64,000 bases of DNA from Microbulbifer elongatus (lineage in GTDB: Bacteria > Pseudomonadota > Gammaproteobacteria > Pseudomonadales > Cellvibrionaceae). Every line of letters begins with the position of its first letter. Within the stretch, counting starts at the first letter, position 1. This document shows positions 11,067 through 52,701 of this stretch, one piece after another. The notes beneath the pieces were generated by a model. The model was not told the origin of the DNA. It did not search any database and saw only the letters and a program-made list of their open reading frames with translations. Location: positions 3,209,501 through 3,273,500 of the forward strand of contig NZ_CP088953.1 in NCBI RefSeq assembly GCF_021165935.1. Direction: 5' to 3'. The position numbers and the translations under genes were made by a program.

Positions 11067-11161
11067 GATCTATCACACATTTTAAAAATGAATTTTTGTC
11101 GGACTTGCGAATCAGCATTGTGACTTCGTCGGGCAGTCCGCTTGGGAGCTCTGTTTCGAGA

Positions 11162-11284
11162 CTGTGGCGGCCAAGCACCGGGGATTAAGATTCGAAACCG
11201 CTGTGAATACATCCATGTACGCTGCGTCGGCGACGTCCCTGTCGCCGACGCTTTCGAAACTTAATCCCCGGCACTTGCCCTTCG
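11162..11284 (+). repeat. Cloverleaf inverted-repeat element, copy A
   Basis: Outer stem: CCGGGGATTAAGATTCGAAA (11178-11197) pairs with 11252-11271 at 19 of 20 positions. Inside are exactly 54 bases holding hairpin 1 (TACATCCATGTA, 11208-11219) and hairpin 2 with a perfect 11-bp stem (11224-11234 with 11241-11251) and loop GTCCCT. The outer flanks CTGTGGCGGC.AAGCACC and GGCACTT..CCTTC recur at copy B. It lies in the prfB-lysS gap, with its reading direction opposite to the operon. Copies B and C share the loops and layout but not the stem sequences. Confidence 0.85.
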
Positions 11285-11332
11285 CTTCCAGCCAAATTAC
11301 TTCGTTAGCAGGACACGAAGGCAAACTAGGCC

Positions 11333-43693: not shown

Positions 43694-44202
43694 AATAAAC
43701 CTCAATAACAATAGCGGAAGCCGACGACCAGAACGTCACGGTCGAGAACTTCCCGGGTTTGATCCTCCATATACCCCATTCTCCAATCCCCGGACCACCC
43801 CTCATAACTGAGAGATCAGTGACCACGAAGACACCCAGGACAATGTGCCGGTATATGTGCGGCGTTTGTTAAGGGCGGCAAAATTCACCACCCTTTGTTT
43901 AGTTTCACTCCGGGCACTGCCCAAAGCGGCGCGCTTTATACCACATTCCCGGAGAGGCTGGAAGTGTGACGAGCGCCACAGGGGAAATAATGGAGGGATT
44001 ACAGCCACTCGGGTACCAGATCCGTCAAGCCGGTCACCTAATGCCCTGCCCCTGTAATTCCGCTACAATACCGCGCCGTTTCCGGACCCGGCGGAACAAC
44101 CTGTCGTTTCAGGGTCCGGTTTGCGCCCGAAGTGCCGCCAGATCGCGCGCTTTTGCCCACAACACACTGTGAAGAACTAGCCACAAACCGTCGGGAAGAT
44201 TC
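43694..44202. other. Divergent rpsB-map regulatory gap with long rpsB leader
   Basis: 509 bases without a supported gene. On the minus strand TATAAA at 43940-43935, followed by the GC-rich GCGCGCC typical of stringently controlled ribosomal promoters, would start rpsB transcription and leave a ~230-base leader, where S2 autoregulation is expected from E. coli. On the plus strand TACAAT (44064-44069) is a weak -10 candidate for map. Both promoter calls are motif matches only. Confidence 0.5.
43935..43940 (-). promoter_or_regulatory. rpsB: Candidate -10 of the rpsB promoter
   Basis: TATAAA on the minus strand followed by GCGCGCC. A -35 at the usual distance (CTTCCA) is poor. The GC-rich discriminator fits negative control by ppGpp, as known for ribosomal protein genes. 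Confidence 0.45.
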
Positions 44203-50143: not shown

Positions 50144-51175
50144 ATGAGCAATCTGTACAGCATTGGCTTCGGCGTCGGCACCTGCAATAGCAAGGGCGAG
50201 TGGCTGGAAGTCTACTTCCCGCAACCGCTGCTGAACCCCAGCGAAGAAGTGGCCAAGGCCGTGACCGGCACCCTCGATATCAGCGGCGGCAACGTCTCTG
50301 TGGCCCTGGAAGAGGCCCAGCTGCAGCCACTGGCGGACCAACTGGCCAGTGCCGGTGCCGAGGAACAGGCGGCCATCCTGCGCCAGTTCGCCGGCAGCCA
50401 GCGTCCGCTGGTCGCGGTGGTTCTGCACAGCGATGACGCCCCGCAGTCTGCACCGGAGTCCTACCTGAAGCTGCACCTGCTGTCCCACCGTCTGGTCAAA
50501 CCCCACGGCACCAAGCTGGACGGCATCTTCGGCCAGCTGGCGAATGTGGCCTGGACCAACCAGGGCGCCATTGACCTGGCGGAACTGCCCCAGCGCCAGC
50601 TAGAAGCGCGTCTCAAGGGCGAGCTGCTGGAAGTGTCCTGCGTGGACAAGTTCCCGAAAATGACCAATTACGTCGTACCTGCCGGTGTGCGTATCGCCCA
50701 CACCGCCCGTGTTCGTCTGGGTGCCTACCTGGGCGAAGGCACGACCATCATGCACGAAGGGTTCGTGAACTTTAACGCGGGCACCGAAGGTCCGGGCATG
50801 ATTGAAGGCCGGATTTCTGCGGGTGTATTTGTTGGCGCCGGCTCTGACCTCGGCGGCGGCAGCTCCACCATGGGCACCCTGTCCGGCGGTGGTAATATCG
50901 TAATTTCCTTGGGCGAAGGCTGCCTGCTCGGCGCCAACTCTGGCACCGGTATCCCCCTGGGTGACCGCTGCACCGTAGAGTCCGGCCTGTACATTACTGC
51001 CGGCACCAAAGTCGCCCTGCTGGACGACAAAGGTGAAGTGGCAGAGTCCGTAAAAGCCCGCGACCTCGCCGGCAAATCCGACCTGCTGTTCCGCCGCAAC
51101 TCTGCCACCGGTGCGGTTGAATGCCTGACCAACAAAAGTGCCGTCGAGTTGAACGCTGAGCTGCACAGTAACTAA
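50144..51175 (+). CDS. dapD: Tetrahydrodipicolinate N-succinyltransferase, long type
   Basis: Succinylates tetrahydrodipicolinate in the succinylase branch of lysine/diaminopimelate synthesis. 343 aa, the long Pseudomonas-type form rather than the 274-aa E. coli form. An N-terminal domain of ~170 residues is followed by a hexapeptide left-handed helix (VRIAHTARVRLGAYLGEGTTIM, GVFVGAGSDLGGGSSTMGTL, GCLLGANSGTGIPLGDRC). Lies between the ArsC-like gene and dapE. A 398-base gap with two structured elements precedes dapE. Confidence 0.96.
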   Translation: MSNLYSIGFGVGTCNSKGEWLEVYFPQPLLNPSEEVAKAVTGTLDISGGNVSVALEEAQLQPLADQLASAGAEEQAAILRQFAGSQRPLVAVVLHSDDAPQSAPESYLKLHLLSHRLVKPHGTKLDGIFGQLANVAWTNQGAIDLAELPQRQLEARLKGELLEVSCVDKFPKMTNYVVPAGVRIAHTARVRLGAYLGEGTTIMHEGFVNFNAGTEGPGMIEGRISAGVFVGAGSDLGGGSSTMGTLSGGGNIVISLGEGCLLGANSGTGIPLGDRCTVESGLYITAGTKVALLDDKGEVAESVKARDLAGKSDLLFRRNSATGAVECLTNKSAVELNAELHSN

Positions 51176-51210
51176 TTTTTCGTCGCTACCGGGTCCATTT
51201 GGTTGCCGCC

Positions 51211-51335
51211 CTGTGGCGGCAAAGCACCTGGTGGAACATTTCGGAATCGCTGTAAATACATCCCTGTACGCTCCGGCGGTGCCATCCCTGGCACCGACGG
51301 TTCCGAAATGTTCCACCAGGCACTTTACCTTCAGT
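51211..51335 (+). repeat. Cloverleaf inverted-repeat element, copy B
   Basis: Outer stem CCTGGTGGAACATTTCGGAA (51227-51246) pairs with 51301-51320 at all 20 positions. The interior is 54 bases, the same as copy A: hairpin 1 TACATCCCTGTA, then an 11-bp hairpin 2 (10 of 11 paired, 51273-51283 with 51290-51300) with loop ATCCCT. Flanks CTGTGGCGGCAAAGCACC and GGCACTTTACCTTC match copy A. The stem sequences are unrelated to copy A. Confidence 0.85.
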
Positions 51336-51409
51336 CGAAGTTCAGCACTTCGCATAGGAAAGCCAGGCAACCAATCGAACCTATTCGGAAAGTTGCGTTT
51401 CAATGCGAA

Positions 51410-51521
51410 GGCCTGCCTGCCGGGGGCTGTTCGCGAGACCTTCTGCGAGAGGGACCTCGCAGAAGAGCCCCCATGGATGGGTTCACGGCGTGTCTCGCGA
51501 ACAGCCACCGGCAGGCAGGCC
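51410..51521 (-). repeat. Cloverleaf inverted-repeat element, copy C
   Basis: Outer arms of 30 bases (51410-51439 with 51492-51521) pair at 29 positions. Read on the minus strand the 52-base interior holds GCCGTGAACCCATCCATG, hairpin 1 CCCATCCATGGG, and hairpin 2 with a perfect 10-bp stem CTTCTGCGAG and loop GTCCCT. Same loops and order as copies A and B, opposite orientation, different stem sequences. Ends 52 bases before the dapE start. Confidence 0.85.
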
Positions 51522-51573
51522 GCCCCACAACCGGAACAGTGCTCCCGATACCACGGAGCCAGTAGAAACTCTC

Positions 51574-52701
51574 ATGACCCCGACAGTACAACTTACCTGC
51601 GACCTGATTAGTAAAAGATCCGTAACCCCTGAAGACGCGGGCTGTATGGACTTGATGCTCGAACGCCTGGAAAAAATCGGCTTCAAAACCGAACACCTGC
51701 GTTTTGGCGACACCGATAACTTCTGGTCCGTGCGCGGCGAAGAGGGCCCACTATTCGCCTTCGCCGGCCACACCGACGTGGTGCCCACGGGCCCGGAAGA
51801 AAACTGGAAGTACCCTCCGTTTGAACCACAAGTAGTCGACGGCATGCTGTACGGCCGTGGCGCGGCCGATATGAAAGGTTCACTGGCCGCCATGGTGGTC
51901 GCCTGTGAAGAATTTGTCGCCGCACACCCAGACCACAAAGGCCGCATCGCCTTTCTGATTACCAGCGACGAAGAAGGCCCGGCCAAACACGGCACCGTGA
52001 AAGTGGTCGAATGGCTGGAAGCCCGCAACGAAAAAATTGACTGGTGTCTGGTTGGCGAGCCCTCCAGCACCACCCTCGCCGGCGACGTGATCAAGAATGG
52101 CCGGCGCGGCTCTCTCGGCCTGGAGCTCACCGTATTTGGTATCCAGGGCCATGTGGCCTACCCGCACCTGGCAGAAAACCCCGTGCACAAACTGGCCCCG
52201 GCGCTGGCCGAACTCGCTGCGGAAGAATGGGATCAGGGCAACGACTTCTTCCCGGCCACCAGCTTTCAGGTCTCCAATATCAATGGCGGTACCGGTGCCA
52301 CCAACGTGATCCCCGGAGATGTGAAAGTGGTATGCAACTGGCGCTTCTCCACAGAAACCACCGCCGAAGCGCTGGAAAGCCGTGCCCGTGCCATTTTCGA
52401 TAAACACGGCCTCAACTACGAAGCCAACTTCAACCTCAGCGGACAGCCCTTCCTGACCGCCGAAGGCCCACTGGTTGAATCCGCACAGGCCGCCATCAAG
52501 AAAGTGACCGGTCGTGAAACCGAACTCTCCACCGCCGGCGGCACCTCCGACGGCCGCTTTATCGCACCCACCGGGGCACAGGTGGTGGAACTCGGGCCAG
52601 TGAATGCCACTATCCATAAAGTGGATGAGTGTGTGAAAGCTGAAGATCTCGACCTGGTGAAAGACATGTACCGGGAGATATTGAAAGGCCTGCTGGCGTA
52701 A
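51574..52701 (+). CDS. dapE: Succinyl-diaminopimelate desuccinylase
   Basis: Zinc hydrolase releasing LL-diaminopimelate from its succinyl form. 375 aa from ATG 51574, equal to the E. coli enzyme. M20 peptidase motifs: [16 protein letters not shown] near 64-79 (zinc His and Asp), [15 protein letters not shown] (bridging Asp), [18 protein letters not shown] with the catalytic Glu pair, and [12 protein letters not shown] near the C terminus. Forms the dapC-dapD-dapE set. The frame extends upstream into repeat C, which I exclude. Confidence 0.97.

Follow-up and report, generated by a model that had tools for sequence, protein, structure and literature searches.

The three cloverleaf sequences found in the window (the whole 64,000-nt stretch of Microbulbifer elongatus DNA analysed) are copies of one dispersed repeat family in this genome, which protein matches of the dapE neighbour assign to Microbulbifer. 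The family is real, large and odd, and it is a relative of a described RNA motif.

Copies in the window and in the genome

We searched the whole 4.2-Mb genome with the shared motif, allowing at most one mismatch, and obtained 51 + 65 = 116 matches on the two strands, against 0 + 0 for a reversed-pattern control. A covariance model built from 31 copies (R1) was then used for the search and copy count that had been suggested together with the sequence-only reading. R1 gave at least 150 copies in this genome, all with E ≤0.01, and reading of the stretches around its matches brought the number to 153. R1 matches were also found in 17 of 18 other Microbulbifer genomes (1 to at least 119 copies each) and in 3 of 10 genomes from other families of the order. 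In the class as a whole, where the best 9 candidates at most were taken per genome, 64 of 369 sampled genomes contained relatives, this genome included. When the 58-nt core was compared with plasmids, phages and E. coli (E limits of 0.01, 0.01 and 0.1), only one 25-nt Halomonas match was returned, among the plasmids. The exact 23-nt core pattern had no match in viral contigs, and R1 gave 0 matches on 65 dapE loci of other organisms.

The three elements were found where the sequence-only reading had placed them, with interiors of 54, 54 and 52 nt and with outer stems that were also recovered as inverted repeats. Element 1 (11160-11288, GGA-loop strand minus, subfamily B, 126.8 bits with R1) is located between prfB-like and lysS-like genes, sense to both; the neighbouring domains are PCRF/RF-1 and tRNA-synt_2. 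The inner 20 nt of its first arm (11178-11197, plus strand) are complementary at 19 of 20 positions to the partner arm (11252-11271, plus strand). On the minus strand, hairpin 1 (11208-11219) folds as TAC-ATGGAT-GTA and belongs to the CANGGANG class, and hairpin 2 (11224-11251) folds with an 11-bp stem and the loop AGGGAC. Element 2 (51209-51337, GGA strand minus, subfamily B, 122.8 bits) is antisense to dapD-like and dapE-like genes (domains THDPS_M and Peptidase_M20). Its arms (51227-51246 and 51301-51320, plus strand) pair at 20 of 20 positions, and folding of the minus strand gives hairpin 1 as TAC-AGGGAT-GTA (51257-51268) and hairpin 2 with a 7-bp stem and the loop AGGGAT (51277-51296).

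Element 3 (51402-51530, GGA strand plus, subfamily A, 111.7 bits) is sense to the flanking genes and forms a (-,+) inverted pair with element 2, across a 64-nt spacer (51338-51401). Its 30-nt first arm (51410-51439, plus strand) was found as an inverted repeat with the partner arm (51492-51521, plus strand), 29 of 30 positions being complementary. Here the plus strand folds hairpin 2 first (51440-51465, 10-bp stem, loop AGGGAC) and then hairpin 1, CCC-ATGGAT-GGG (51470-51481), followed by a TTCACRGC joint. On all six strands of the three elements, folding was far better than in 200 dinucleotide shuffles (z from -7.7 to -11.7), none of which did equally well. When the shared motif was loosened slightly, it matched the window exactly three times at up to 3 mismatches, a number also reached in 10 of 100 shuffles. 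No Rfam family matched over these elements at its gathering score. The window also contains a t44 RNA (43758-43879, minus strand, 53.9 bits), an ordinary known feature.

Throughout the family, a conserved core of about 52-60 nt is flanked by two mutually complementary arms, which are unique to most copies. The core consists of two hairpins whose loops read A(N)GGA on one strand; the joint between them is AGC, with TTCACRGC as well in many copies. This GGA-carrying strand is opposite to the motif strand of the sequence-only reading, so the 'GCT joint' described there reads AGC. We found CANGGANG on the GGA strand of 144 of 146 cores and on the other strand of 0 of 146, while 135 of the 146 carried at least two A(N)GGA. 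The first inspection had missed this strand specificity of the core and its likeness to the TwoAYGGAY / CsrA-site class. Nor is the hairpin-2 loop fixed as RTCCCT, as had been proposed: on the complementary strand it reads AGGGAC in 71 copies, AGGAT in 30 and GGGA in 14, with others fewer. The hairpin-1 loop is mostly ATGGAT or AGGGAT, and AGGGAC and AGGAT are the main forms in hairpin 2.

In Microbulbifer the arms consist of a conserved frame and two variable segments; outside the genus the frame is often lost. Subfamilies A and B, together with a junction insert of 13-15 nt (23 of 146 copies), explain most differences between copies. By reading, GGA was present in both hairpins of 21 folded relatives from other genera, which are not independent of R1 because they were found with it. 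Several copies carry inside hairpin 1 a small hairpin with GTTAGRC...GYCTAAC ends, which we take to be attC-like in look (219683-219890 and 3677485-3677613 in this genome; L057, a dapE intergenic region of G034). A hairpin-rich insert beginning GTTGAT splits hairpin 2 at 421736-421925 and in two further dapE intergenic regions (L051 and L058). Other small elements thus seem to insert preferentially into the core hairpins.

According to gene calls made here, 111 of the 153 copies have tandem contexts, 34 convergent and 6 divergent, with one copy inside a gene call and one unplaced. At least one gene ends towards the element in 145 of the 151 placed copies, the six others being divergent, and in tandem contexts the element follows the upstream stop codon at a median of 33 bp. 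Gaps of at least 100 bp in the window are 19 tandem, 6 divergent and 1 convergent; against this small baseline, divergent gaps seem to be avoided. The sequence-only reading had noted both orientations relative to transcription, and this extends to the genome, where 57 of the 111 tandem contexts have the GGA strand in sense orientation and 54 have it in antisense. Among the at least 150 matches there are 24 close pairs (<400 bp), 20 of which are ordered (-,+).

Arm pairing and its origin

The pairing data support the proposal that structure persists while sequence does not, and they make it probable that one arm is rebuilt in DNA as a copy of the other. In the alignment of 31 copies, 99.6% of 806 cells pair and 178 double-side changes were counted, compared with a shuffled mean of 50.2; the covariation score was 0.609, shuffles giving 0.185. 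With the partner shifted by 1-3 columns, pairing fell to 31-51%. One of the five covariation measures, further pair types, gave no excess over shuffles (37 vs 37.0). At best register, 146 of the 153 parsed copies have at least 15 of 20 inner pairs, the seven dropped being degenerate, insert-carrying or misparsed. The inner 20 positions of these 146 copies hold 2,854 Watson-Crick pairs in 2,920 cells (98%), 15 G-T, 8 C-A and 43 others; with the seven dropped copies added at best register, 2,940 of 3,060 cells pair. All four pair types occur at stem positions 11-14 in both subfamilies. The scarcity of G-T disfavours RNA folding as the force on the inner stem, and since G-T is hardly commoner than C-A there, DNA-level arm copying fits better than RNA selection. 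In the outer stem (positions 21-29) we counted 82 G-T against 20 C-A on the GGA strand, whatever the gene orientation, a strand asymmetry without a good explanation.

Our best explanation has three parts, DNA-level arm copying, a core read by CsrA and a mark at transcript ends, and as a whole it is put forward tentatively. The arms would be kept identical in DNA mainly by template switching between them during replication (quasipalindrome correction), with selection for pairing acting in addition. Where a transcript runs through the GGA strand, CsrA may recognize the core in its RNA form, with a single dimer spanning both loops, and the long hairpin might also mark or protect transcript ends in either orientation. 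As the account of the covariation, DNA-level arm copying is the best we have, good but not closed. The CsrA-linked role at transcript ends should be taken as a lead only.

In the available text of PMC8604942, template switching homogenizes arms and inverts spacers; the accessible parts of two other papers have it maintaining RNA hairpins (PMC8794818) and occurring in E. coli (PMC7202029). Of these marks, published for template switching between inverted repeats, the repeat shows strong arm homogenization and, in one ortholog pair, an inverted core. Quasipalindrome correction is known as a mutational process, and here it would act across a whole repeat family. The inversion was observed between the copy at 1868079 and its counterpart L257, where the core is inverted in place between nearly unchanged arms and frame, and it supports template switching. 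Core and frame orientation were concordant in 90 copies of this genome, unclear in 63 and flipped in 0; the corresponding numbers in G034 (Microbulbifer HZ11) were 82, 55 and 1. Of ten apparent orientation flips between the two genomes, 1708433, 3260709 and 3359283 may be wrong-partner matches, 1868079 is the clean core inversion, and the others show a flipped frame as well or an unclear alignment.

Comparison of homologous loci with and without the element, also suggested at the outset, was run against G034; shared sites were found and a clear pre-insertion site was not seen. Both flanks of 120 copies are present in G034 stretches, and at 115 of these G034 has the element too; this proportion is inflated, since the G034 stretches compared all lay near G034 copies, and 33 copies were not comparable. 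The five copies without a counterpart comprised two insert-bearing elements and three remnants, one of them weak. Three of the 30 unmatched G034 copies had both flanks, and at these this genome gave one remnant, one insert-bearing element and one site indistinguishable from a clean absence. With no clear empty allele at these sites, no clear new insertion is seen since the species split.

There are 108 unique ortholog pairs between the two genomes, 98 in the same orientation. The analysis took the 89 in which each copy has 17 or more of 20 pairs, a filter which drops 9 of the 98 and lowers the mismatch count. The fourfold-site distance between the genomes is 0.198. A set of 75 pairs was chosen by orientation, shared subfamily and the same pairing threshold; at the five most variable stem positions, 111 of its 375 cells showed a double-side change and in 8 one genome lacked the pair. 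The transition to transversion ratio of these double changes (53:58) is like that of fourfold sites (2931:3026). Neither flank is homologous in 52 pairs. Of these, 9 switch subfamily; the remaining 43 hold 215 variable cells, with double-side changes in 101 and a mismatch in 7. When both 20-bp flanks are homologous (21 pairs), the variable segment is without a double change in 18, slower than free copying predicts.

Changed stems thus accompany diverged flanks, and they go with changed cores as well: in changed-segment pairs the exact hairpin-2 stem type was shared in 15 of 56, near the 19-26% expected of random copies, in a comparison where a single pair change already counts as different. 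Part of the change is therefore replacement of the whole element or the core and not in-place drift, and we have cut back an earlier interpretation in which the fast change of variable segments at orthologous sites was all in-place copying. Ectopic conversion as the sole source of arm variety is disfavoured by unique 8-mers, as 105 of 144 copies with at least 18 of 20 pairs hold an 8-nt stem segment absent from all the others. Identical short segments are in excess (17 vs 8.0 expected in subfamily A, 49 vs 21.1 in B), and what look like mosaic copies exist among the matches listed.

At the dapE site, arms of different species pair in 282 of 300 cells (15 genomes) and 316 of 340 cells (17 genomes), with up to four pair types per position; 4 and 2 further genomes had no arm match, and a few rows are in the wrong register. 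In G017, a long CGGGACT tandem repeat lies directly behind the dapD-like gene, in the dapE intergenic region L073.

The arms could instead be made at insertion: a mobile core of some 60 nt would settle behind a gene, and the host DNA next to it would be duplicated in inverted orientation on the opposite side, giving each copy perfect arms of its own; we consider this a possible but rather doubtful alternative. It is suggested by genome G288, where BLAST with one copy and its flanks found more than 30 paralogous places sharing only the core of about 60 nt (83-95% identity), with arms that are largely unrelated between copies and still complementary. Among 21 copies read (20 from G288, 1 from G418), an uninterrupted match of 27 bases or more is present in 11, and 17 reach 27 matches or more with at most 3 mismatches, small register shifts allowed. 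The unique 8-nt segments and the arms of retained orthologs, which barely change (the 18 of 21 above), also agree with arms made at insertion. However, no clear pre-insertion site was seen among five candidates from this genome and three from G034 (one G034 case is ambiguous), and the dapE-site arms of many species read as a graded series of double changes. The conserved frame of the Microbulbifer arms and a short pattern common to several G288 arms also speak against it. Were it correct, this would be a new kind of bacterial repeat, in which only the double-hairpin core (about 60 nt) propagates and fresh arms arise by inverted duplication of neighbouring DNA, giving unique perfect palindromes with two CsrA-type loops at many gammaproteobacterial gene ends; we doubt that it is one. 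In G288, a second, apparently unrelated repeat was observed upstream of one element (L321:1171-1360), with about ten partial copies in that genome.

It is unlikely that selection alone keeps the pairing, an RNA or DNA structure being needed and restored by ordinary two-step compensatory substitution. Mismatches are indeed very few, and stems of retained orthologs change less than fourfold sites. Selection on RNA would, however, leave G-T intermediates, and the inner stem has almost as few of these as of C-A. Moreover, over 20 positions of the 21 closest pairs, those with both flanks homologous, 13 double changes were found against 10 differing cells with a mismatch, of 420 cells, whereas a rough two-step estimate (a textbook equilibrium argument, made with no tool) expects about 2 double changes in 420.

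GGA loops and a possible link to CsrA

As judged from its sequence variation, the hairpin-1 loop resembles a CsrA site in that N is free and GGA is fixed. Of the 89 ortholog pairs, 86 allowed alignment of the motif; the N of CANGGATG varies in 29 of them, and the letters of GGA vary in 2, 1 and 0. The cores carry an A(N)GGAX loop directly on a short stem, and the high-affinity CsrA/RsmE form is given as an ANGGAX hexaloop on a stem in the accessible part of PMC4005645. Hairpin 1 of element 2 with its preceding G matches RUACARGGAUGU, the CsrA SELEX consensus and a CsrA/RsmE determinant in the text available of PMC7652899. CsrA is encoded in this genome. The loops are kept in 50 of 56 sense and 49 of 52 antisense copies (relative to the host gene), and such nearly equal conservation is not predicted by an RNA function through host transcripts.

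Eight of 40 congeners (G003, G004, G006, G009, G010, G014, G039 and G046) have 5-19 CsrA matches, not one. Repeats in these genomes are few or divergent (1, 1, 2, 6, 11 and 65 copies in the six with R1 counts). A DNA search with the dapE region of the window gave, for each of the eight, no more than its two gene matches among the best 7 candidates taken, and some one-CsrA genomes also gave few (G040, 2; G011, 3). The eight are probably one clade, so that they count as one event without clear meaning. Five congeners had no CsrA match; the syntenic stretch was not met in three of them, and these absences were left out of the argument.

The element might be a DNA-level mark only, such as a cruciform or a site for gyrase or a nucleoid protein, with no RNA role. 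The lack of orientation bias (57 to 54), the similar loop conservation in both orientations and an inner stem nearly without wobble pairs all point this way. Nevertheless, the match of hairpin 1 to a CsrA site, free N and fixed GGA included, and the concentration of copies at gene ends make such a restricted role quite unlikely.

If the combined explanation of arm copying and CsrA reading is true, more than 100 natural palindromes per genome would be available for measuring arm-to-arm copying, and covariation, the usual proof of a functional RNA, could arise from a DNA process. TwoAYGGAY would be recast from a presumed RNA motif to a dispersed repeat class, and the question would be raised whether one genome can carry about 150 dispersed CsrA-type sites.

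Comparison with known families

A REPIN/RAYT-type or other mobile hairpin driven by a Y1 transposase is very improbable: the repeats are dispersed, hairpin-forming, paired and extragenic and there are two Y1_Tnp genes in this genome, but Y1_Tnp matches occur in 37 of 40 congeners (this genome included) and do not visibly follow repeat number (54 repeats but no match in G012, 1 repeat and 2 matches in G003), the loci of the two genes (6,666 bases) contain no repeat, and no recent insertion was seen. The idea of a transposase substrate in present use is not supported by these observations, nor was a clear pre-insertion site seen between the two species; the suggested check for a co-occurring Y1/RAYT-like gene found no link in the 40 congeners or at the two loci. 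The family is like REPINs in being dispersed and extragenic, with inverted pairs that form hairpins (PMC3116915, as far as its available text goes). It differs from them in its long, mostly unique arms and separate conserved core, and no RAYT linkage was found.

Compared by description only, YPAL / RU-2 of Yersinia are similar in that they are intergenic palindromic repeats near dyad symmetries, according to the accessible part of PMC2229807. Ysr224 (RF02770) matched the window copies with 27.4 bits and a relative with up to 47 bits, on the opposite strand and below its cut-off of 70. We would guess that Ysr224 is a YPAL copy. CsrA-sequestering RNAs of the CsrB / RsmZ type present GGA in the loops of short hairpins, two or more to a molecule, and are made from a few dedicated genes. 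Our family shares the hairpins and differs in having at least 150 dispersed copies in both orientations, most with two sites.

TwoAYGGAY (RF01731) is listed as a probable RNA of unknown role (PMC2864571) and CsrA binding has been proposed for it (PMC4333381), in the portions of these papers available. Existing models reach the repeat in part, RF01731 matching other copies in this genome and RF02770 those in the window, both below cut-off. The best copy scored 41.9 bits with RF01731 (gathering cut-off 43) and was aligned end to end, over model positions 1-168, on the GGA strand. At E ≤10 the model gave 10 matches in this genome, none of them a window copy; a search of 51150-51600, which covers elements 2 and 3, gave no match at E ≤5, and the class-wide search with stricter filters gave none in this genome. 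That search placed members above the cut-off in 15 of 369 genomes of the class, and six genomes had at least 7 matches at E ≤0.001. In G207, G318 and G412, TwoAYGGAY members form (-,+) close pairs like those described here.

The likeness extends to strand and order: a long, poorly conserved outer stem, a GGA hairpin, an AAG/AGC joint, a second GGA hairpin and the closing stem. Two hairpins inside a long outer stem on the GGA strand were found, and the window copies have the same fold. One difference lies in the terminal loops, which do not both read AYGGAY in copies from this genome, where the hairpin-1 loop is often AGGGAT. In the portions of the TwoAYGGAY literature available, we did not find it presented as a dispersed repeat of high copy number whose arms are perfect and unique. 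The repeat is best explained as dispersed, mostly vertically inherited, intergenic and of the TwoAYGGAY kind; what is new here is the copy number, the inverted pairs and the near-perfect pairing of the inner arms.
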